This document shows, one piece after another, positions 4,241 to 51,433 of a stretch of 64,000 nt of DNA. The stretch is from Apoderus coryli (lineage: Eukaryota > Arthropoda > Insecta > Coleoptera > Attelabidae), in assembly GCA_911728435.2 (NCBI GenBank), contig OU452200.1, positions 37,091,715 through 37,155,714 on the forward strand, written 5' to 3'. The position numbers and the translations under genes are program-made. The notes beneath the pieces are model-generated. The model saw only the letters and a program-made list of their open reading frames with translations. It searched no databases and was not told the DNA's origin. The stretch's first letter is position 1. Each line of letters begins with the position of its first letter.

Positions 4241-5136
4241 ACACTCCATCGCACCGAAAAGTTATGAAACTACGAAGCGGTTTTCAGTAGAAAGATTTAC
4301 GTGACTACAACTATCTAAATGTAATATGAAGTTATTCTGACTATATAGGGATTTATTTAGTGGTTATTACGTATTAACCACTCATTTAAAGTTGCTGTAT
4401 CAATTTGCTTAGTTTTTAACACTAACCATGCTACTTGGGTACCTATATGCAGCTTTTTACAAAAATATGCAGTAAAACACTAAAATGCATTATGCACTTT
4501 ACATAACGTAATTTCCTTCGAAAAGTAATTTATAATTCTTAAACAAATTTCATAACTATCACACACCACGATCGTACCTAAATTTCATTATACTTACTTG
4601 TATTATACAAAAAATACTGTCCGTTACATAAATTACAGCTTTACCACATTGAATTTCTCAATAACCATCCATTATTCCACAAGCAACTAACAAGAAATTG
4701 CATGTAATTAGCGTCTACTTTTATTTTTAAGTTTCGTGTACATATTATACGTGAAACTGTCTGGCTTTCGAAATGCAGCATTTATTATTATTATGAGGTA
4801 TCTCCCGTCAATATTGTTATTAACTGAATGACAGTCATAATTCTTGTGTGCGAGTCGAATGTATGTAACGTATAATTTGCACATGATTGATGGATATTCG
4901 GTTAACGAGCGCTTATTAAAGACAAAGGCAAACTAAGTATAGCCATACCTACTACTTACTGCTGGGGCATTATTTTTAAAATTGTACCTTATCTTAGGTG
5001 GTACCAGCACAGGTAATATTTGGCATATTCCAATGAATGGATACAGTTTTCAACAACCGCAATAGTGGCGAAAGAATTATGGCAAATGACCCACAGTTAT
5101 TGGTGCAGTCCATTGTACCCACTTTGGGATAATAAT
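4241..5136. other. no recognisable gene
   Basis: AT-rich DNA. A minus-strand frame crosses 4994-5479 but mostly mirrors the reverse transcriptase on the other strand; its part left of 5136 has no recognisable motif. Confidence 0.4.
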
Positions 5137-5211
5137 ACATGGCCACAGGATCTGAATTTCTAACATTTGATGGAAATATAAATGTTGGAAATTCAGATCC
5201 TGTGGCCATGT
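5137..5211. repeat. 31-bp inverted repeat (foldback) at the 5' edge of a CR1-like element
   Basis: Bases 5137-5167 are the reverse complement of 5181-5211 with a single mismatch; the loop is 13 bases. The right arm is part of the retrotransposon coding frame (it encodes GNSDPVAM), and the left arm is an inverted copy of it. Such foldbacks are expected when target-primed reverse transcription ends by template switching or twin priming, so it probably marks the 5' insertion junction. Confidence 0.85.
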
Positions 5212-6960
5212 GCACGCGATTTCTTGGTTCTGCCAGTAACACCCTATATTTGTCACCTATTGATGAGCTGGAGGTTGTTAAGATCATAGAGAGTATGTCT
5301 CGGAGCGTCTCGAAGGATGTATTCGGCTTGAGCAATAGTCTCCTCAAAAAAAAAATAATTTGTGTACCTTTAAAAATAATTATAAATAAATGTTTTAGTG
5401 ATGGAAAATTTCCACAAAAACTAAAACTTACTAAAGTGTCTCCCTTATATAAAAAGGATGATCCTGGAGAGGTTAGCAATTATCCTATTTCTATAATACC
5501 AATCCTCTCCAGGCCAATAGAAATCGCTTTCAATAACAGGTTATACAAATATTTAGAGAAATACCAACTTATCTCAGAATCACAGTATGGTTATCGAAGG
5601 CGAAGTTTTCCAAAACAAGCAATCCTAAGGTTGGTGCGGTCTATTGTTGATGCAATGGAGAGGGGTGAGACTCTTACATCAATATTCTGTGATCTTAGCA
5701 GAGCATTTGATTCTGTGATCCATACAATTCTTTTAGCAAAATTGCCTCTGTATGGTGTGAGAGGGCTTGCTGCTTTGAACTTCATTGAGTCCTACCTGAG
5801 CGATCGACAGCAGATAGTGGAGTGCGAGGGAGAGAGGTCTGATGCACGGGATGTAACCATAGGGGTACCCCAAGGTTCGATATTGGGTCCTCTTTTGTTT
5901 TTGCTCTATGTCAATGACTTCTCCGCTTTTGTTAGAGATACTCAAATCATTCAGTATGCGGATGATACTACTTTGTATGAGTCTAACAAAAATAACAACA
6001 AACAACTCGAAAATAAATTTGTCATGGCAGAAAAATGGTTCGAATCCAATAGACAATAGACTTCGAATAGACAATAGAGCGGATTGATTTTTCACTTAGG
6101 GGTCAATACGTTAACGATAAGGTTGTTAAATTTCTTTGAGTCTGTCTGGACTCGCGTTTAACATGGAATTCTCAGATTGATAACCTCTCTAAAAGATTGT
6201 CAAGTGGTAACTACCTTTTGAGGAGACTGGCGAGTACATGCTCTGAGAGCGTTGTTCGTTGCGCGTATATGACGTACTTTCAGGGACTTATTAACTATAG
6301 CGTTCTGTTCTGGAGTAATGCATCTCACAGCGAAAAAATATTTAAAATACAGAAAACAGCAATACGCAGAGTAGCAAAAGCGAATTACAAGGATTCATGC
6401 AAGCGTTGTTTAAAAAACTAAATATTTTCACTGTTTTTGCGTTATAGGTATATTTGGCAATGTATTTTATATGTCAGAGATAATGTAGAAGGTTTAAATA
6501 GACACAGTGATATGCATGAACATAACACAAGAAAGAAAGATAGGATATGCTTATCTCAGCACAAACTGGCCCTGACTGATAAACAGTGTTTCATCATGGG
6601 AATCAGATTTTACAACCACTTACCACTTTCTCTCCAAAACTGGAAAGACAATGTAAGGTTTAAATAAGGGGTAAAACTGCATCTTCTCGAAATAATTCCG
6701 TATACTTACGCTGACTTTCTTAATTAAAAATTTTAAATGTATATAGATTACGAGTTTTGTTTCTGTAGGATTTGTTATTTTACACTTAATTGTGTTGTTG
6801 TTGATGTCGTTCTGTTTGTTTACTTATGGTAATGTTTTTTATTTTATTTTATTTTGTGTTTTTTATATTATTTATATTACTTATAGTTGTTTTAGTATAA
6901 TATGTATGACAATGCAGATAACTACGGTTACAAAGCAAATAAAGAATTATTATTATTATT
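5168..6960 (+). mobile_element. CR1-like non-LTR retrotransposon, copy A, 5'-truncated
   Basis: This is a plus-strand element beginning within the linker before the reverse transcriptase and ending in AATAAAG followed by (ATT)n at about 6944-6960. Its protein is closely related to copy B on the minus strand at 13,911-15,424: both share LPLYG, SYLSDR, QYADDTT, YFQGLI.YSVLFW and RFYNHLP. The 5' end carries the foldback at 5137-5211. The 3' end interrupts an unidentified minus-strand coding relic at 6955-7325. Confidence 0.8.
5181..6667 (+). pseudogene. CR1-like reverse transcriptase, interrupted
   Basis: The first open block runs to the TAG at 6057-6059. It includes VSPLYKKDDPGEVSNYPIS (fingers), FCDLSRAFDSVIH (palm motif A), GVPQGSILGPLLFLLYVND (motif B region) and QYADDTTLYE (catalytic aspartates). 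After a disturbed stretch around 6057-6200 the thumb and C-terminus continue in other frames as YLLRRLASTCSESVVRC, YFQGLINYSVLFWSNA, HNTRKKDRICLSQHKLAL and MGIRFYNHLPL up to 6667. The endonuclease and ORF1 are missing. The copy cannot make a full RT, although all core motifs of the palm survive. Confidence 0.8.
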
Positions 6961-17057: not shown

Positions 17058-18441
17058 ATCTTGTCCTTGCCTTAGATCATCAGGTTCAAAAGCGAAAATA
17101 GAAGTAAGAATTGCTTGTTACATAAAGCAACAAGGCTTTAAGTTATGTTGGAAATTTGTTTCACACTACCATGCTTCCACCAGACGGCTTATACTAGCAC
17201 GAAAATTGATTGAGAGAGAGCATATTGCCTGTTCATGCTAGATGTCGCCAAAAACATATCTCTCTCTCTCTCTCTCTCTCTCTCTCGAAAATAGAAGTAT
17301 TTGAGTAAGATAAGAGTTTAAGAGGATTTTTGACGCTTAGTTAAATCCAGCATAACAGAAATAATTCGACAAAAAAAGAAGTGTAGATTTGTTCGGATTA
17401 ATTTTATTCGTTCAACTCGTGTAATAATACAGACCACTAGCCATCCAGAGATATACCCAATATATATCCCAATGTGATGTATGTGGGGCGCACATTGCGC
17501 TAGATGGAACGCAATATGGCCGGTTTGGAGAAAGGCAATAACCATTAGGTTTGGAGAAAACTGCCCCATTTCGTGTGACACGACCGGCGAATATGGGAAA
17601 ATTTATACCAACCGGAATATCAGATAAGTGGAACTGGTCATTCGGGCAAACCGTTGCTGCTTGCATGCCATATATATATGTACATACATATATGTTATGT
17701 CCACCCCATGTCCGGGTCCAGACTGTCGTCTCGTGGCATGGAAGATTTTATATATTGCCGCAATTTACCATTAGACCGTTATATTTTTCAGAGCGAATTT
17801 GCTATAGGAATTATATACAGGTCTACACTAAAACTTACAGAAAAAAATAATTGTCACTATGATTTTGTTAGACAAGTTGGTCTTGGTGGGAATTTCCTCC
17901 TATAATGCACTAGACGAATGATCATGATAAAATTAAATGTGGGGCCGTTTCATTGATCCACAACTCATCATCAACTAAAAGTCTTGTTACTTTATGTAAC
18001 AAGCAAAGCCTCCCGCCAGGGAATTCGGGCGCGTCTAGTGTTGCCAATAGGATATAATGGAGTTGTTGCTTCTCGTCCGGCCATAGTTTGTAAACTGTGT
18101 TTCACCGGGTGTTAGGATTTCAAATTGTTATTAAATGTTGAACTTTATATTAGAGGTAAACTCAGACAGAATAAGCGGTATAGTTGAATGGTAGCCCAAT
18201 CGAAGCAATCCTAACCACCGGCAGCTCGGTCAGGAGTAAGGTAAGGGTTGCCCCACTGGTTTATGGGCGGCCAAAATCAGGTCAGCCTTCAACTATCGCT
18301 CAATAAATAAAACACTAAATTTATTTTACCCAATTACTAACTATATTCAATTAAAATATCACAGAAAAAAGTTAGGATTCAATTGGTAAAAATCACAGTC
18401 AAGACTACTCCAATTAAAATTATATAAATTTACCCAACTAA
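17058..18441. other. no recognisable gene; (CT)n at 17,259-17,286
   Basis: Apart from a 28-base CT microsatellite I see no repeat or coding region I can assign. Overlapping motif-less frames at 17,412-17,905 are probably chance. Confidence 0.35.
17259..17286. repeat. (CT)n microsatellite
   Basis: Fourteen uninterrupted CT dinucleotides, visible directly. Confidence 0.9.
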
Positions 18442-23174: not shown

Positions 23175-23306
23175 TTTAACTCAATTGGTTATTGAGTTAA
23201 ATTTTGGTATATGAGTTTGGGGGAGTCCTAGGATGCACCCATTAGTTTTTGGTTGAAATCGCTTGAGCCCTGTGATAGGGGTGGGTTTTTTAGCACTTCT
23301 CTAATT
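23175..23306. repeat. dispersed repeat, left half (also at 34,310-34,440)
   Basis: About 100 bases including AATTTTGGTATATGAGTTTG, GGGGGAGTCCT, CCCATTAGTTTTTGGTTGAA and ATCGCTT.AGCCC match 34,330-34,400 closely. The hammerhead-bearing element is inserted at its right edge within ACTTCTCTAATT. Confidence 0.75.
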
Positions 23307-23373
23307 AGTATAGTGGTTGACAGACAAACTCTCGGATTTTAAGTCTTGTTTTGTTAAACAAGCCCATTCCAAA
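23307..23373 (+). repeat. terminal direct repeat, left copy (67 bp)
   Basis: Starts AGTATAGTGGTTGACAGACA and ends CAAGCCCATTCCAAA. I see no difference from 23,640-23,706. Unlike the right copy it is not preceded by TGGTGAA, the seven bases that follow the ribozyme cleavage site, so the 5' end is slightly truncated. Confidence 0.9.
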
Positions 23374-23595
23374 TATATGCGATCCCGCTTAAGGGAGTAT
23401 CGGCGCGTCTATGTGTTGGTAGTTGCTTTATGGGGTCAGAGACCTCCCAGGCGGTCGATATAGGAACTGTTGTTCACTCGGCGTACTACCAACAATAAAA
23501 CTAGATGTCGCCAAACACATCCTTTTACATCTCTGTACCGTTTGTGGTATATACCACATTATTTACGAGGGTTTGGCTGTCAACTACTGACCGAT

Positions 23596-23637
23596 CACCA
23601 CTGATGAGTCGTGGATCGACGAAACGGCCGTCTGGTG
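23596..23637 (+). ncRNA. type I hammerhead self-cleaving ribozyme
   Basis: All core parts are present in order. Stem I 5' strand is CACCA (23,596-23,600), followed by the core CTGATGA (23,601-23,607). Stem II is GTCG/CGAC (23,608-23,611 with 23,617-23,620) around loop TGGAT. Then come GAA (23,621-23,623), a minimal stem III from the palindrome ACGGCCGT (23,624-23,631) and C17 (23,632). Stem I 3' strand is TGGTG (23,633-23,637), which pairs perfectly with CACCA. Predicted cleavage falls after the GUC ending at 23,632. The very short stem III is typical of retrozyme and Penelope hammerheads, which may act better as dimers. Every required core nucleotide matches the consensus, so activity is plausible. 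Confidence 0.88.
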
Positions 23638-23639
23638 AA

Positions 23640-23706
23640 AGTATAGTGGTTGACAGACAAACTCTCGGATTTTAAGTCTTGTTTTGTTAAACAAGCCCAT
23701 TCCAAA
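23640..23706 (+). repeat. terminal direct repeat, right copy (67 bp)
   Basis: The second copy of the 67-bp repeat, directly downstream of the hammerhead. Its last base overlaps the first base of the 12-bp target duplication. Confidence 0.9.
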
Positions 23707-23717
23707 CTTCTCTAATT

Positions 23718-24220: not shown

Positions 24221-25257
24221 CGAGGGTTGCCTTTTATATTTCGGGATTAGAGAACAAAAACAAATATTAATCATCGAAAATCACTTTGTATTGTTTTTCC
24301 GAATGTTCCCCATGAAGATCTATACACTTTTGCATGCGTTTAAACCAATTGTCGAAGCACTTTTGCCACTCTGATTGAGGTATCTTAAAAACATGCATTT
24401 TGAATGCAGCAACCGCTTCTTCAGGTGTCGAAAAACGTTGATTTCTCAGTTTGTTTTTTACGTACGGGAATAAAAAGAAGTCATTCGGTACCAAGTTTTG
24501 GGTGTTCAAAAATGCAGTTGTTTGAGCCGATGTGTGAGAGGTCGCATTGTCGTGGTGAAGAGTGATCCGTCTTCGGCGGTAGGTTTTCCTGATTTTTTGG
24601 AAGACAACTGGCCAACAAATGGTTAGAACTTAGAATTAAATGTTCTGCGTTGTTCTAGTGGTACGGTTGCGACATGTCCAGTTTTTCGGAAAAAACAGGC
24701 GACCATTTGCTTGGAAGTGCTTCGTGCGCGAACAACTTTTGTTGGATACAGTCGCCTGCTGTTTACTTTCGGGCTCATACGCGTAAATCCACGATTCATA
24801 ACCTGTCACGATGTCATAGACGTGTTTCGAAGCACCGCGATCGTACTTTTTGAGCATTTCTTTCGACCAATCGACACGAGCCTTTTTTTGAGCGATTGAC
24901 AAATTGTGTGGGATCTAACGCGAACAAATTTTTTTGACCGGCAAATGTTTATGCAATATTAAATGTATGCTGGTCCCACTAATGCCTAAGGTTGTCTCAA
25001 TCTCTTGATAGCTCACATGACGATCTTACAATATCAGTTCGCGCACAGCATCAATGGTTTTCGGAGCAACAACTGATTTTGGACGACCTTCACGAAATTC
25101 GTCTTGGAGTGACCACGACCACGATTCAATTCACCATACCATGGATAAACACTCGTCCTTGAGGGAGCTTCATCGCCAAAAATTGAATTACGGTCATCCA
25201 TGCACTGTTGCTGAGTTAATCCACGTCGAAAATTGTAAAAAATAATCGTACGAAAAT
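24221..25257 (-). mobile_element. mariner element, copy 1, 5'-truncated
   Basis: The right end of the element (lower coordinate) starts CGAGGGTTGCCTTTTATATT directly after TA (24,219-24,220). The transposase frame runs on the minus strand. The 5' end is lost: similarity to the complete copy at 50,174-51,433 stops at about 25,257, before the untranslated leader and the second terminal repeat. Confidence 0.85.
24267..25230 (-). pseudogene. mariner transposase, broken (copy 1)
   Basis: Recognisable blocks are SIAQKKARVDWSKEMLKKYD, GASKHVYDIVTGYESWIYAY, FRTPEEAVAAFK-like sequence (STPEEAVAAFKMHVF) and WFKRMQKCIDLHGEH. Compared with copy 4, a deletion of about 24 bp follows the TKVVRARST region and about 40 bp are lost at HPPYSPDL. 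The last catalytic-aspartate region is therefore gone and the frame is shifted several times. The first catalytic aspartate (usual TGDESW) reads Y, a change shared with copy 3. This copy is inactive. Confidence 0.85.
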
Positions 25258-38800: not shown

Positions 38801-38904
38801 AAAAATAACTAGTAGGTACTCTTTTTTATTTTTTTCACGAGACTTTAGCTGTAGCAGATTTAAGGCCGTTATAGTGACAGAATGGAGTCAATGGCCTCTG
38901 TCGA

Positions 38905-38955
38905 CGACGAGACCGCCTTCTGGTGAAAGTAAAGTGTTCTGCCAGACAAGAGTGT
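38905..38955 (+). ncRNA. decayed hammerhead relic related to 23,596-23,637
   Basis: CGACGAGACCGCCTTCTGGT, then GAAAGTAAAGTG and CAGACAA, aligns to the 3' half of the intact hammerhead plus the following terminal repeat with scattered differences. The CTGATGA core is missing, so it cannot cleave. Confidence 0.45.
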
Positions 38956-38959
38956 AAGT

Positions 38960-39722: not shown

Positions 39723-40738
39723 CGAGGGTTGCCTTTTATATTTCGGGATTAGAGAACAAAAACACATATTAATCATTGAAAATCACTTTATTCCCCATGA
39801 AGATCTATACACTTTTGCATGCGTTTGAACCACTTTTGCCACTCTGATTGAGGTATCTCCAAAACATGCATTCTGAATGCAGCAACCGCTTCTTCAGGTG
39901 TCGAATAACGTTGACCTCTCAGTTTGTTTTTTACGTACGGAAATAAAAAGAAGTCATTCGGTGCCAAGTCAGGACTATCCGGCGGATGACTCATCAAATC
40001 GATGTTTCGGGTGCCCAAAAATGCAGTTGTTTGAGCCGATGTGTGCGAGCTCGCATTGTCGTGGTGAAGAGTAACCCGTCTTCGGCGATTGGTTTTCCAG
40101 ATTTCTTTGAAGACAACTGGCAAACAAATGGTTGTGTACCACTCAGAATTGACTGTTCTGCGTCGTTCTAGTGGTAAGGTTGCGACATGTCCAGTTTTTC
40201 CGAAAAAACAGGCGACCATTTGCTTGGAAGTGCTTCGTGCGCGAACAACTTTTGTTGGATTTGGCTCATCTTGAAACACCCATACAGTCGACTGATGTTT
40301 ACTTTCGGGCTCATACGCATAAATCCACGATTCATAACCTGTCACGATGTCATAGACGTGTTTCGAAGCACCGCGATCGTAGTTTTTGAGCATTTCTTTC
40401 GACCAATCGACACGAGCCTTTTTTTGAGCGATTGACAAATTGTGTGGGATCCAACGCGAACAAATTTTTTTGACAGTCAAATGTTTATGCAATATTGAAT
40501 GTATGCTGGTCCCACTAATGCATAAGGTTGTCTCTTGATAGGTCACATGACGATCTTGCAATATCAGTTGCACAACAACTGATTTTGGACGACCTTCACG
40601 ATATTCGTCTTGGAGTGAACTACGACCACGATTGAATTCACCATACCATCGATAAACACTGCTCCTTGATGAATCTTCATCACCAAAAATTGAATTAAGT
40701 TCATCCATGCACTGTTGCTGAGTTAATCCACGTCGAAT
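39723..40738 (-). mobile_element. mariner element, copy 3, 5'-truncated
   Basis: The lower-coordinate end starts CGAGGGTTGCCTTTTATATT right after TA (39,721-39,722). Similarity to copy 4 ends at about 40,738, just upstream of the transposase helix-turn-helix. The leader and the second terminal repeat are lost. Confidence 0.85.
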
Positions 40739-40846
40739 AGTCAAGAATATTATGAATTCTCTGAGAAAAAATAAGTTTTTGAAAAAGTATGTATGACGTA
40801 CATTTACTTCTATCTCTAACGAAACACATTTGTTTTTACTGAACAA
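39788..40846 (-). CDS. mariner transposase, near full-length but catalytically mutated
   Basis: An open frame of 352 codons. About the first 37 residues come from flanking DNA, because the element is truncated at about 40,738; the real protein starts near RRGLTQQQCMDELNSIFGDE. Then follow the helix-turn-helix and linker (SSVYRWYGEFNRGRSSLQDE, WIPHNLSIAQKKARVDWSKE). The first catalytic motif reads TGYESW instead of TGDESW. LHHDNASSHTSAQTT holds the second aspartate and HPPDSPDLAPNDFFLF the third. In-frame losses remove the segment after RPKSVVV and part of VTYQE..TLGISG. Mariner transposases cut and paste the element at TA sites with a D,D34D triad, so the D-to-Y change should abolish catalysis although the frame is open. 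Confidence 0.85.
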   Translation of the reverse strand: MFSKNKCVSLEIEVNVRHTYFFKNLFFLREFIIFLTIRRGLTQQQCMDELNSIFGDEDSSRSSVYRWYGEFNRGRSSLQDEYREGRPKSVVVQLILQDRHVTYQETTLCISGTSIHSILHKHLTVKKICSRWIPHNLSIAQKKARVDWSKEMLKNYDRGASKHVYDIVTGYESWIYAYEPESKHQSTVWVFQDEPNPTKVVRARSTSKQMVACFFGKTGHVATLPLERRRTVNSEWYTTICLPVVFKEIWKTNRRRRVTLHHDNASSHTSAQTTAFLGTRNIDLMSHPPDSPDLAPNDFFLFPYVKNKLRGQRYSTPEEAVAAFRMHVLEIPQSEWQKWFKRMQKCIDLHGE

Positions 40847-40859
40847 ATATTTTATTAGA

Positions 40860-41340
40860 AGTTACAGGCCATATTCTCAATGATATCGTGGGCAGATTTC
40901 ACCTCTCATTGTCCCTTCACAAACATGCAACTCCGTAGAAAATTCCACCCCAAACCATTACACCTCCACCTCCAAATGGTTGCACTTCTTAAATATTAAC
41001 TCTTGAATTTCTTGATCTCCAGACATGAAGTGTACGTCTGTCAGCACGAAGACAAAAACGGCTTTCATCACTACGCATCATTCCAGTTCGCTCTGTCATT
41101 ACACCAAAGCAAACGTTGAGCTTTATGGACTGCGGTCAACGGAAGACGTCTTATAGGCCTATAGCAATGTAAACCTGCTTCATTTAATCGATTTAAGATC
41201 GTCCGAGGAGACGAATTCTGCCGGTAGCGAAAAGCTCCTGGCTGAGCAACGTGCAGTTTCTTGTAGGATCGATCCTAGCTCCTTTCACTAATATTCGGTC
41301 CTCCTTAGCATTTCTCGATCTTGGTTTACGTTTATAAGCC
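40860..41340 (-). pseudogene. Tc1-like transposase relic
   Basis: Minus-strand blocks in mixed frames are RKPRSRNAKEDRILVKGARI (second helix-turn-helix), SDESRFCLRADRRTLHVW with the first catalytic aspartate, RSRNSR, and EVEVWFGVEF, a decayed form of the GG.VMVWGGI motif. The order HTH, SDESRFCL, VW......, MVWG is that of Tc1-like elements. Frameshifts and stops are frequent, and the C-terminal DDE half is missing. It abuts the truncated mariner copy 3, so the two may have been joined by a deletion or insertion. Confidence 0.6.
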
Positions 41341-41593: not shown

Positions 41594-44507
41594 TTAATCA
41601 TCTGTACAATATACACAGAACTCTTGCAGCGTATAAAAAACTCCATCGATCAAAAATTTCTTCAGTTTTGATTTAAATGAGTTGAGTGTCGGTGCATTTT
41701 TCATAGCAACTGGCAGAATATTGAAATAGTACCTACCTGAGTATAACGGACTCCTTTTAAAAAACTCATGATGAGGCCTAGGGAGGTACAGACGGTTCGC
41801 CCCTCGAGTGTTGTGATCGTGCATACTGCCGTTGGTTTGTAGTTCCTTAACGATTTTAAAAATGTAAACACATAATTTGTAGAGATACACCCCAGTCAAT
41901 GTTAAAATCTGGCAACTTTTAAATGTGTTTCTACATGAATAGTTGTAAGGCAAAGCAAAAATAACGCGTAGTATTCTTTTCTGCAGTACAAACACTCTTG
42001 ATATGTCAGATGCCCTACCCCAAGATACAACATTATATGACAACACAGAGTATACCAAAGCATAATAAATATTCACTAAAGATGATGCATCCAGCTTGGT
42101 CCTCAGTGAGTAAATGAGAAAGAAATTTTTACTCAATTTGCCACAAACCGCATCAACCTGGCTTGTCCACCGTAATCGCGAATCCAAACACATTCCCAGA
42201 AGTTTTGAAGAGTTCGTCCATGGCAAATCAAAATCCCTAAAAGAAACATTGAAATTTAGAAGTGGTTTGTATATAGGAAACTGCATAATGACTGTCTTAC
42301 TGTGGTTTATTATTAATCGGTTTTCATAACACCACTGTTCAAACTGATTTAATACCTCATTTATTTTTAAATGCAGCATACTTTCAGCTTTATCGGACAC
42401 AATAATTGTTGTATCATCTACATACATAAATAACCTGCCACAAGTGATATACCGGGGTAAATCATTAATATATAATAAAAACAAAAGGGGTCCAAGAACA
42501 CTACCCTGTGGGGTCCCAATATCCATGCTCTCCTGGGCCGAAACAGACCCATTTACCCTAACACATATTCTTCGATGACTTAAGTAAGATAATATCCATC
42601 TGTTAATTGGGTATCTGAATCCCATTGACTCAATCTTACTGATTACGAAGGATTTATCGATTGTATCGAAAGCTTTCGACAAGTCGAACATTAGTGCTAC
42701 CACGAAATGTCCCCGGTCAGCCAATTCGTGTATGTGTTGCACTAACTCAGTGGTACATGTCTCCGTAGATAATCCACTCCGGCTACCATGCTGACAATCA
42801 GTGATAGTGTTAGTCAATGTTAGAAACTCCTCCATTTTTTGTGTTACAGCCTTTTCGAATATTTTGGAGATAATACTTAAGAGTGAAATGGGTCTGTAAT
42901 TATCCATGTTCAACTGGTCACCCTTTTTAAAAACCGGAACAATAACTGCTTGTTTAAGTTCAGAAGGGAAAACACCTGTCAAAACAGAACCATTAATAAG
43001 CCCACATAATTGAGCAGCCAACGTATCAGCGTTCTGTTTGACCAATTTAACAGGAATGCCATCATATCCAGTAGAATTTTTGTTTTTAAGATGTTGGATA
43101 ATTGTTTTTACATCATCTTCAACAACCGGTGTGAAATAGAAGGACAAAGAGGTCGCTGGGCCAGCTGTACAATTAACCGAAAGACCAGCAGAAAAGTGTG
43201 TATGCAATTTTGTGAGTATATTGGATGCATAGTATTTACATAAAGTAGCAGCAATCTCCGACGGCTCAGTTATCTCACGATCTTCATGTCTAATGCACTC
43301 CACCGTCCGATCCCTCTGGTTTACCCCTGTTATCTTTTTATAGGTTGACCAAACAACTTTAGACTTATTCGAACTATTATTTAATTTAAAGTTAAATTGG
43401 TCAATACGTTCCCGCGAGATTCCACTACGAACCTCCCTTTTAAGATTTTTATAGGCATCATGTAGGGCAGGTTCATTCAAATTCCGCCTTAACCAGTTTA
43501 AATTTTGTAAGTCATTGTACATGCGACCCAGCTCGTTAGAAAATACTATTTTGTTTTCGAAGTATTTAGCATGATTAACTTTTGCTCTCTTTAGAGGAAA
43601 TGCTATATCAAAACACCACTTCAGGCGAGTCCAGAAGGATGTAAAACTGTCCTCAAAGGAATTAGATATCTCAGGCATACCGTTATTAAAGTGAAAGGCA
43701 AATTCCTGTATAGATGCATCATCAAACTTTCTGTATTGATAATACTCAGGCTCATCTTTCACTGCCAACCGTTGTTCAAAGTTAACCTTAGTTATTTGGG
43801 CCAAATGATCAGAGAATCCCAAATTAACATTAGCCGTTGTCACGATTTCTGGAGAATTTGTAATAACATAATCAATAGTTGACGAAGTCATAATACCATT
43901 CAACAGTTGGACAGTTCTTGTAGGGGTAATTACCTTCGAAAATAGATTAAACGAGTTCAATAAATCCCTAAGAGTTCTGTCCTCAATGGAGCCATCGCCC
44001 CAATCAACATTAAGATCGCCGCAAACCAGTAACATGTCAAATGCCTGCGACGCTCTTGCTAGCAAATTAGTCAGTTGATTAAGAAAGTGATCAAAATCGC
44101 CTGAAGGGCTTCTATACACCGACACAATGCACATGTGATTGTTATACGCTACAGCAGCACACTCAAAATCCATTTCCAAAGAAAGATCATTTAAAAATTT
44201 TACAGTTTTAAAAGAATTAATAATGTCATTTCTAATATAAATAGCTGATGCCATGCTTATGCAAGCTTCTACAATAACTTACAACTAACGAATAATTTTC
44301 AATATATGTACAAGCGATCCTTTCGCTGGAAAGCCAGTGTTCTGTTACACAAACAACATCAACGCTATTCTTACTTAAATAAAGTTCAAAAATACTTATT
44401 TTATTTAAAAGGCTTTGTACATTAATATGTAACACAGTCATTGAAGTATCGGAACTGGAATCATATTTGACGTACTCATTCGGATTCGGAACGAAAAAAC
44501 CCATCAC
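41594..44507 (-). CDS. CR1-type ORF2: endonuclease-reverse transcriptase (one frameshift)
   Basis: Two frames join near 44,250. The first 91 codons (from 44,507) read VLHINVQSLLNKISIFELYL and VDVVCVTEHWLSSERI, the start of the APE endonuclease with its N and E residues. A one-base-type shift in SLHKHG then leads into 886 codons beginning ASAIYIRNDI. The endonuclease continues with YRSPSGDF, CGDLNVDW and FSDHLAQ (catalytic D/H). The reverse transcriptase follows: VPVFKKGDQLNMDNYRPISL, FDLSKAFDTID (palm A, about residue 526 of the second frame), GTPQGSVLGPLLFLLYIND, MYVDDTT (about 611; usual YADD has A, here V) and KLLGMCLDSRLRW. The C-terminus has HDHNTRGANRLYLP and YYFNILP. It nicks DNA and copies its own RNA at the nick. 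Confidence 0.92.
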
Positions 44508-45621
44508 TTATTGCTTTAGAAATAAAGTTCGCAATAATAAATTTTCCGCTCCAGCCCAGTGAAATACAGCGATTTCGAGAGAAGACTAAATTTTTTGAAT
44601 TTAATATTGAATTAATATTGACATATTTAATTTTACTCACTGTATTTTCTTCTACAAGCTTATTATAATTGATTATATTAAATTCATCAGCAAGTTTGCA
44701 AAACACAGGTCTGTCTTTCCATAACGGCACAGAAAAAAATAAAATGTTGGTTTTTAGAGCCGCGGTAATTATTTTATGATACACTGACGCGAGAGTTTGC
44801 TGTCCACGAAGAATATTAATGAGACCCCCAGATATGACTATGTAATCATTGACAGAATAGCCCACAGACAATCTTGTTAAGTCTTCAACGATGTCCTCGA
44901 GTTTAGCGTTGTGTTTTACAAACGAAATAACTTTAAATCTATCACCACAAAGGTTTGTCAATAGATATGATATGTCAACCATCATGCTATCGCCAAAGAT
45001 CAATACTCTGTTTTTCACCACATTCTCACCTCTCTGTGTACATCTGGGAGTAGAGAGATCAGATGTCGCACCTTCAGGGATGCTATTTTCATCATTTGAA
45101 CAAGTTTGTGTATGAATTTCCGTTGTTTCTCGAGCACACTGTACAGCGAAATCACTACTAACACTTTGATTACTTTGATAAGTCTGTGTTTGTATATTTG
45201 TCACTTTATTGCAACATTGTACTGCACACTCAGATTTTTTAATATTAGTCTGGGTAGAGTTATCCATCACAGATGGCGCTTTTGTAGATTCATGCATTAA
45301 AACACTTTCAAGCTCCTGAATTCGTAGTTTTTGGTTTGTGATTTCCTGGGTATAATTCTCCTCCGCCTCGACCACATCACTTTGAAATTGGTTGGACTGA
45401 CGTCGCATTCTATGTATATAATCGTCTTTCAATCTAAGTTCCTTTTGTAATTCCTGGATAATGTTTGCTTGCTGTTCAATTTCAGATTCAAGTTTCTGTA
45501 CCTTGTCTGCCTTAGCACATAGCTTTGAGCAGTAAAATCTATTTTTATTAACAAATAGTGCCTCCTTCCACTTGGTAGAACAATTTTTGTGAAAAAATTT
45601 TTCACACGTTAAACGAAGCAT
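44476..45621 (-). CDS. CR1-type ORF1: PHD-like finger, coiled coil and SGNH esterase
   Basis: A frame of 381 codons. The N-terminus CEKFFHKNCSTKWKEALFVN and FYCSKLC looks like the second half of a PHD-type zinc finger, so the start may be internal to a longer protein; a stop lies two codons upstream of the ATG. A coiled coil follows (KVQKLESEIEQQANIIQELQ, KELRLKDDYI), then a Ser/Thr-rich linker with repeated TQT(N/C/Y) phrases. The domain at about residues 200-340 reads NRVLIFGDSMMVDI, VISGGLINIL and FFSVPLW, the GDS and GG.N blocks of an SGNH/GDSL esterase. Such PHD-esterase ORF1 proteins are known from CR1-like elements and probably bind RNA or membranes and aid transposition. ORF2 overlaps its last 32 bases. 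Confidence 0.85.
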   Translation of the reverse strand: MLRLTCEKFFHKNCSTKWKEALFVNKNRFYCSKLCAKADKVQKLESEIEQQANIIQELQKELRLKDDYIHRMRRQSNQFQSDVVEAEENYTQEITNQKLRIQELESVLMHESTKAPSVMDNSTQTNIKKSECAVQCCNKVTNIQTQTYQSNQSVSSDFAVQCARETTEIHTQTCSNDENSIPEGATSDLSTPRCTQRGENVVKNRVLIFGDSMMVDISYLLTNLCGDRFKVISFVKHNAKLEDIVEDLTRLSVGYSVNDYIVISGGLINILRGQQTLASVYHKIITAALKTNILFFSVPLWKDRPVFCKLADEFNIINYNKLVEENTVSKIKYVNINSILNSKNLVFSRNRCISLGWSGKFIIANFISKAISDGFFRSESE

Positions 45622-45649
45622 GAGCTATTCGTCGCATAATTTTAATAAC

Positions 45650-50173: not shown

Positions 50174-51433
50174 CGAGGGTTGCCCTTTATATTTCGGGAT
50201 TAGAGAACAAAAACAAATATTAATCATCTAAAATCACTTTATTGTTTTTCAAAATATTCCCCATGAAGATTTACACACTTTTGCATGCGTTTGAGCCAAT
50301 TGTCGAAGCACTTTTGCCACTCTGATTGAGGTACCTCCAAAATATGCATTCTGAATGCAGCAACCGCTTCTTAAGGTGTCGAAAAAAGTTGACCTCTCAG
50401 TTTGTTTTTTACGTACAGGAATAAAAAAAAGTCCTTCAATCCCAAGTCAGGACTATACGGCGGATGACTCAACAAATCGATGTTTTGGGTGCTCAAAAAT
50501 GCAGTTGTTTGAGCCGATGTGTGAGAGGTCGCATTGTCGTGGTGAAGAGTGATCCGTCTTCGGCGTTTTTCTGATTTCTTGGAAGACAACTGTCAAGCAA
50601 ATGGTTGTGTACCAGTCAGAATTGACTGTTCTGCGTTGTTCTAGTGGTACGGTTGCGACATGTCCAGTTTTTCCGAAAAAACAGGCGACCATTTGCTTGG
50701 AAGTGCTTCGTGCGCGAACAACTTTTGTTGGATTTGGCTCATCTTGAAACACCCATACAGTCGACTACTGTTTGCTTTCGGGCTCATACGCGTAAATTCA
50801 CGATTCATCACCTGTCACGATGTTATAGACGTGTGTCGAAGCACCACGATCCCATTTTTTGAGCATTTCTTTCGACCAATCGACACGCGTCTTTTATTGA
50901 GCGACTGACAAATTGTGTGGGATCCAACGTGAACAAATTTTTTTGACAGTCAAATGTTTATGCAATATTGAATGTATGCTGGTCCCACTAATGCCTAAGG
51001 TTGTCTCAATCTCTTGATAGGTCACATGACGATCTTGCAATATCAGTTCGCGCACAGCATCAATGGTTTTCGGAGCAACAACTGACTTTGGACGAGCTTC
51101 ACGAAATTCGTCTCGGAGTGAACTACGACCACGATTGAATTCACCATACCATCGATAAACACTGGTCCTTGATGGAGCTTCATCGCCAAAAATTGAATTA
51201 AGTTCATCCATGGACTGTTGCTGAGTTAATCCACATCGAAAGTTGTAAAAAATAATCGCACGAAAATGTTCACGATTTAATTCAATTTTTGGGCCGAGAT
51301 GAATTACAAATATCGCTCGTATGTCAAAACGTTCTGAGTACGTATAACCTCAAAAACTTTACGATAGAGCTGTCAGTTGCCAGATTGCAACACCAGGGTT
51401 GCCAAATTCCCGAAATATAAAAGGCAACCTTCG
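50174..51433 (-). mobile_element. mariner element, copy 4, complete with both ends
   Basis: Exactly 1,260 bp between TA dinucleotides (50,172-50,173 and 51,434-51,435). It begins CGAGGGTTGCC and ends GGCAACCTTCG, inverted repeats of about 28 bp with few mismatches (the left reads CCCTTTATATT, the right TATAAAAGG). This is the reference copy for the family in this window. The transposase inside is broken. Confidence 0.9.
50270..51239 (-). pseudogene. mariner transposase, broken (copy 4)
   Basis: Blocks in three frames: MDELNSIFGDEAPSRTSVYR with the helix-turn-helix, RRSSLRDEFREARPKSVVAP-type linker, SRWIPHNLSVAQ; then VTGDESW (aspartate intact, 50,806-50,825); FQDEPNPTKVVRARSTSKQM and VACFFGKTGHVATVPLEQRR; then ITLHHDNATSHTSAQTT (second aspartate). 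HPPYSPDLGLKDFFLF follows, where the usual APN reads GLK but the third aspartate remains. Frameshifts near 50,580 and 50,890 and a stop in the SVAQ region make it inactive. All three catalytic aspartates survive, unlike copies 1 and 3. Confidence 0.88.

Follow-up and report, generated by a model that had tools for sequence, protein, structure and literature searches.

A dispersed family of non-coding hammerhead repeats in the genome of Apoderus coryli is probably a non-autonomous animal retrozyme whose unit RNA would be closed into a circle and copied from both edges of a DNA break, most likely by the enzyme of a Penelope-like element. Five features can be read from the assembly itself: a multi-copy family, target duplications around its insertions, two fixed end sites, a rule that each two-armed insertion uses one of each, and a bottleneck of a single unit at insertion.

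The copy in the window

One copy lies in the window, i.e., the whole stretch of 64,000 nucleotides that was analysed (Table 1). Unit positions are counted from the first nucleotide after the predicted hammerhead cut (u1). The preliminary description had reported 67-bp identical repeats, a 333-bp unit and a 12-bp target duplication, and all three are confirmed in the sequence: the direct repeats, 67 nt each, are 100% identical and spaced by 333 nt. Base 23706 is common to the right repeat and the right duplication, so that the end reads as 67 + 11 or as 66 + 12. Identical as they are, these terminal repeats are not a fixed, LTR-like part of the element; they reflect the part of the unit that a copy of 1.2 units holds twice, and arms elsewhere in the family run from 0.3 to 12.3 units. 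The sequence supports the reading as a recently inserted retrozyme. Unit GC is 45%, and the window copy differs from most others at three positions (154G, 171T and 271G). No open frame of at least 120 aa is found at the element, hence no ORF of the Penelope kind with reverse transcriptase (RT) and GIY-YIG domains. The empty target would fold as a hairpin, TTTTAGCAC ... GTGCTAAAA, with 9-bp perfect arms flanking the insertion point (23288-23296/23724-23732).

A complete type I hammerhead, also claimed before, was recovered by both Rfam and a strict descriptor, with the cut predicted after 23632. Hammerhead_1 (RF00163) scores 33.8 bits (E 1.2e-4 over the whole window), which falls 0.2 under the gathering score of 34, and for this reason a default Rfam scan lists no hammerhead. 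The strict descriptor finds this site only in the window, and one hit in 150 dinucleotide-shuffled windows. Stem III has 2 bp closed by a palindromic GGCC loop, making ACGGCCGU self-complementary, and the extended stem I folds over the repeat boundary (23580-23660, z -3.8). Folded as a circle, the window unit reaches -113.9 kcal/mol against -83.6 ± 6.3 for 100 shuffles, none of which was as low; among 100 other 333-nt pieces of the window, one folds as well.

The first repeat starts 7 nt past the position equivalent to the cut, with no hammerhead ahead of it; therefore, the window copy has one cut site and not two. Its transcript would be cut once and could not release a free 333-nt unit. Of the earlier suggestion that a unit of about 333 nt is released, the single hammerhead stands and the release from this copy does not; multimeric loci, unlike the window copy, could release it.

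Table 1. Features of the retrozyme families in the window.
Feature	Position	Strand	Remarks
Retrozyme copy	23307..23706	+	one-armed, 1.20 units, head u8, tail at site 1 (u74)
First copy of 67-nt overlap	23307..23373	+	unit positions u8-u74
Second copy of 67-nt overlap	23640..23706	+	supplies 3′ strand of extended stem I
Left target-site duplication, 12 bp	23295..23306		ACTTCTCTAATT
Right target-site duplication, 12 bp	23706..23717		ACTTCTCTAATT
Type I hammerhead	23595..23638	+	Rfam RF00163, strict descriptor
Hammerhead stem I	23595-23600/23633-23638	+	
Hammerhead CUGAUGA	23601-23607	+	
Hammerhead stem II	23608-23611/23617-23620	+	
Hammerhead GAAA	23621-23624	+	
Tail hairpin	23678..23695	+	CTTGTTTTGTTAAACAAG; directly ahead of site 1; similar hairpin in older family
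Site 1	23702..23706	+	u70-u74; tail end, putative reverse-transcription start
Site 2	23527..23532	+	u228-u233; second end position, used by other insertions of the family
Family-2 insertion	17107..17285		minus arm left (17110-17185 aligned), plus arm 17220-17257 aligned
Family-2 target duplication, 14 bp, left	17093..17106		
Family-2 target duplication, 14 bp, right	17286..17299		
Second family-2 fragment	17942..18109		minus hammerhead piece 17942-17970, plus piece 17972-18109
Decayed hammerhead/tail fragment of a relative	38895..38958	+	nhmmer E 2.9e-4

Other elements surround the copy. At 5133-5215 a near-perfect inverted repeat resembles the mir-5595 family (54 bits against a cut-off of 100) and is probably a small inverted-repeat transposon. 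A LINE occupies 41594-45624 on the minus strand, with an 894-aa frame holding endonuclease and RT domains and a 382-aa frame upstream; the nearest relative in the collection searched is only 43% identical. Frames at 39788-40861, 50894-51349 and 24267-24629 resemble degraded mariner copies.

The family in the genome

The expectation of a multi-copy family was borne out by a genome-wide search with the unit, which gave at least 208 matches spread over many contigs of the 428 Mb assembly (129 contigs), 40 of 1144 candidate places having been scored. Nearly all are 97-100% identical among the matches listed, and since scoring covered the copies with the highest similarity, the sample is weighted towards young insertions. 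The unit is 332-333 nt long, mostly 332 nt.

We fetched 39 stretches and measured 36 insertions, the window copy included. Loci L001-L008 had been dropped as the same places as other loci. Left out of the 36 were L043, with flanks and duplication as in L046, L044 and L045, from a repeated region of contig C101, and L047, a flank of the window; L043 was retained in the hammerhead-core count only. That count, over 36 fetched loci, gives an exact core in 157 of 167 units. L019 and L032 share a target site and are not independent. Their arrays, on contigs C15 and C14, are of unequal length within the same target sequence and a nearly identical duplication, as if a host repeat with its insertion had been copied and the arrays had later changed length. 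In C101 (L043-L046, about 47-74 kb) many retrozyme arrays lie within less than 30 kb, some with shared flanks, which is either a cluster of segmental duplications or an effect of assembly.

An older family (family 2), about 65% identical to this one (family 1) over the whole unit, is present in the window and in the flanks of L015, L022, L030, L040 and L042, and a closer relative of family 1 (79%) lies in L020. The tail hairpin is kept in the older family. Its insertion at 17107-17285 has a site-1 tail on the left and, on the right, a plus arm that reaches close to site 2, with a CT/GA run between it and the right duplication. This insertion and the fragment at 17942-18109 were also considered as one element split by an insert; they are better read as separate family-2 insertions or fragments. 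In L040 (4518-4533), a family-1 insertion stops about a dozen bases short of an older, two-armed family-2 insertion.

Two arms and two end sites

The majority of insertions (27 of 36) are two-armed: a minus arm on the left and a plus arm on the right, with heads in the centre and tails outward. The other nine, among them the window copy, have one arm. Arms measure 0.28-12.34 units. Target duplications of 10-15 bp had been anticipated at other copies, and exact ones of at least 10 bp (10-17) were found at 31 of 36 insertions, against 16 of 720 in the control. Allowing one mismatch adds three of the remaining five (34 of 36 in total; control, 14 of 360), while L010 and L028 have no duplication even then. 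The duplications are 84% A+T. At the 27 head-to-head junctions, the arms overlap by 1-5 nt in 15 cases, have no overlap in 4 and are separated by inserts of 2-44 nt in 8. RNA transcribed across both arms of such loci would be double-stranded over long stretches and might give rise to small RNAs that act against the family.

On first reading, 35 arms have a tail that ends within u62-80 and 28 have one that ends within u228-238. Once the duplication is subtracted, the end positions are about u69-74 (site 1) and about u226-235 (site 2), some 157 nt apart. One end at each site was seen in 26 of 27 two-armed loci at first reading and in 27 of 27 after L040 was re-examined. This locus, with a 14-bp duplication holding one mismatch, had looked like an exception (u62/u76); an internal deletion has joined u62 to a site-2 piece, which forms the left end. 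If both sides chose independently and at about even odds, the one-of-each pattern would have a chance of about 1e-8 by our own arithmetic, with L019 and L032 taken as one. The nine one-armed insertions end at site 1 in seven cases and at site 2 in two. Microhomology between target and RNA at the start sites is modest only (p 0.015 at each site).

The heads behave differently from the tails. The 63 heads over the 36 insertions are evenly spread over the unit (KS p 0.46), with six within 10 nt of the cut where 4.0 are expected. Hammerhead cleavage therefore seems not to determine where the 5′ end falls, and we rejected the idea that it does; the closeness of the window copy's 5′ end to the cut site looks like coincidence.

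This architecture bears on two other routes. Satellite DNA, spread by unequal crossing over and gene conversion, would account for tandem units of a single length, and self-priming on an antisense template, a route put forward for the Penelope elements of rotifers (PMC3846280), for the inverted arms and their head-to-head junctions. A tandem satellite would form arrays without insertion boundaries; here, duplications bound 31 of 36 insertions, the copies are dispersed over many contigs, both ends are fixed and obey the one-of-each rule, and the arms of a locus share variants that most other loci lack. We give this explanation practically no credence.

Target-primed reverse transcription of the LINE type, as for SINEs, with the inverted arms as products of twin priming, is a somewhat better candidate and still a very improbable one. 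LINEs are present in the genome, one of them in the window with a long open frame, and duplications of 10-17 bp are compatible with them. However, poly-A is missing from the ends of the retrozyme tails inspected. In twin priming by LINEs, the RNA 3′ end is found on one side only, whereas both outer ends of the retrozymes are tails at fixed internal positions, and the Penelope-like insertions of the same genome share the two-armed form.

A bottleneck of one unit

The arms of one locus differ in 1 of 297 comparisons (12 informative positions), whereas a control with shuffled partners gives a mean of 9.9% differing and, as the lowest of 5000, 4.4%. Variants within loci were classed wherever a locus offered three or more units at a position, with the termini (u66-82, u224-243) and inserted nucleotides excluded: 14 variants, from 8 loci and five of them from L038, are shared by all units, 68 belong to a single unit and 2 are intermediate. 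Examples of the first class are 151A in L036 (9 of 9 units), 134A in L046 (15 of 15), and 271G and 282G in L026 (6 of 6). Some of the one-unit variants may be later mutations. Since variants are found in all units or in one and rarely in between, each insertion appears to stem from one unit-length RNA, and it seems that, at insertion, a variant passes from one unit to every unit. To judge from these variants, the template would most simply be circular and primed from both DNA strands.

Alternatively, a homogeneous donor array could supply the template as a long multimeric transcript that is left uncut, with the two-sided priming unchanged. The Penelope enzyme PAc accepted unprocessed RNA in vitro, where it did not need the hammerhead (PMC11167929), and arrays in the genome are homogeneous, as transcripts of a single array would then be too. 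Linear copying, however, should keep one-unit variants single and make mixtures common, which is at odds with 14 variants in all units and 2 intermediate ones, and the intact hammerhead core of most units argues against long uncut transcripts. We consider such a template unlikely, and prefer a circle primed from both DNA strands.

Predicted structure of the unit RNA

In the predicted circle, the pair u35-u267 closes a multiloop in which site 1 is unpaired. A weak hairpin of 4 bp (u227-238), which contains site 2, branches off this multiloop across the domain u92-226. The mean unpaired probability is 0.76 at site 1 and 0.52 at site 2, against 0.35 overall. In nine diverged fragments, 73-86% identical over the aligned part and including two arms of the same insertion, 346 of 417 predicted pair cells are kept, while partners slid by 1-3 positions keep 138-223 of 386-425, in a test that favours the structure as it was derived from one of the compared sequences. 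Changes on both sides of a pair number 11 against 0-9 in the slid controls, hardly above the best of these; therefore, covariation proper is weak.

Penelope-like elements of the same genome

GIY-YIG domains are abundant in this genome: all 150 places scored, of 1260 candidates, were above the cut-off, and several form minus/plus pairs that stand head to head like the retrozymes. One locus (L069) has an RVT_1 (RT) frame and a GIY-YIG frame, head to head. The protein relatives combine RVT_1, PF26215 and GIY-YIG, as Penelope-like elements do; the best hit is 61% identical, and the best named ones (58-59%) are from Molorchus minor and Aromia moschata, both longhorn beetles. One short and one long tail were found in the three two-armed insertions that could be scored (L052, L053 and L078), which have duplications of 8, 8 and 12 bp. 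The distance between the two ends is 36 nt in L078 and about 49 nt in L053, against about 157 nt in the retrozyme, and the long side of L052 has a deletion. Such unequal tails agree with the optional tail published for one of the inverted ends (PMC3846280) and with the two RT start sites of a lizard Penelope (PMC11167929). L079 is two-armed as well and was left unscored, its left arm breaking off in a hammerhead-like region; L051, L059, L060, L065 and L068 also have inverted self-matches and were not scored at both ends.

Among 30 Penelope loci, eight match a loose minimal-hammerhead pattern, and five of these eight contain GAAACGTC. The strict descriptor finds no hammerhead in the 30 loci, and Rfam none in the eight pattern-positive ones up to E 1, and for the latter reason our confidence in the mechanism proposed below and in its more specific version is slightly lowered. 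Beyond the loose pattern, the literature makes hammerheads in these elements likely. Penelope tails and retrozyme sites share no sequence similarity above shuffles in eight comparisons (lowest P 0.09); therefore, no particular partner is identified, and the helper is suggested by form and not by sequence.

Comparison with known systems

The family resembles the animal non-LTR retrozymes (Cervera & de la Pena 2020, PMC7229834), which are described with a type I hammerhead, a unit within 150-450 bp, GC below 50%, tandem copies, large target duplications (>4 bp), no coding region and a highly paired unit. The two-base-pair helix III with a tetraloop is found in HHR_Amex2 from the same source, and a weak helix III, in many cases needing a dimer, is described for animal retrozymes (PMC7761336, PMC7229834). 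The available portion of PMC7229834 does not mention two-armed head-to-head insertions, fixed ends used once per side or a unit bottleneck.

Plant LTR retrozymes are alike in being non-coding, in their hammerhead and in the circle model (PMC4918200, PMC7761336); in the descriptions available, they have a type III hammerhead, LTRs of about 350 bp and 4-bp duplications, all absent here, where the hammerhead is of type I and the duplication 12 bp. By description, the repeats of newts, Schistosoma and cave crickets can be set beside the family as units of a few hundred bp with a hammerhead (PMC4918200, PMC7229834, PMC2837043), and amphibian hammerhead repeats share the palindromic loop III. Unlike those repeats as they are described, the present ones are dispersed insertions with duplications. 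Pattern scans of viral and genome contig collections and blastn of phages and plasmids gave no matches.

Penelope-like elements share with the family a hammerhead near the start, partial tandems, head-to-head inverted ends and short target duplications (PMC11167929, PMC3846280), an optional tail on one inverted end (PMC3846280), and an internal RT start with both strands cleaved and extended (PMC11167929). They differ in several respects: the retrozyme has no ORF, its hammerhead is complete and not minimal, its arms can hold many full turns, and its sites are about 157 nt apart where the published Penelope distance is 30-40. In other words, the retrozyme works like a Penelope-like element and is not one. 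In a lizard, a Penelope protein cuts and extends both strands, with starts at two neighbouring positions internal to the RNA; no difference in start site between the DNA strands was seen in that work, and the hammerhead was dispensable in vitro (PMC11167929).

Proposed mechanism

We propose that multimeric copies would be transcribed and their RNA cut by the hammerheads into units of 332-333 nt, which would be closed into circles. An enzyme, most likely of a Penelope-like element, would cut both DNA strands about 13 bp apart and leave 3′ ends overhanging. Each overhang of about 13 nt could then prime reverse transcription on the same circle, site 1 serving as the start for one overhang and site 2 for the other, and each cDNA would extend round it, covering between part of one turn and twelve turns. 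Both cDNAs would then be joined at their ends, head to head and at arbitrary positions, often with an overlap of 1-5 nt, and filling of the overhangs would create the target duplication. Copying from a single side would yield one-armed insertions such as the window copy. The one-of-each rule would follow if the complex were dimeric and held one RNA in a fixed manner. From the sequences we infer the circle, in preference to another unit-length bottleneck, together with the enzyme and the dimeric complex.

A more specific version, for which we see the case as nearly balanced, is that a two-part reverse transcriptase of the Penelope type copies the hammerhead circle, its parts starting on opposite DNA strands, one at site 1 and one at site 2 of the same circle. 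Both sites would be at the base of one RNA domain, placed like the RNA starts of Penelope. If true, retrozymes would be rolling-circle parasites of Penelope elements.

Both a circular template (proposed in PMC4918200 and PMC7229834) and Penelope elements as helpers of animal retrozymes (PMC7229834) have been put forward in print. As far as seen, the family is a new member of the retrozymes. Head-to-head retrozymes were not found in the open-licence literature searched, which does not prove their absence elsewhere; within that literature, the two-armed, two-site form with a unit bottleneck would be new for retrozymes. The bottleneck in both arms, along with the rule of one end each shared with Penelope-like insertions, provides genomic evidence for the proposed circular template and Penelope helper. 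It also leads to exact in vitro predictions for a Penelope enzyme, which should start at two defined positions of a 332-nt circle, one for each strand. The family may also offer a natural case of DNA insertion templated by circular RNA.
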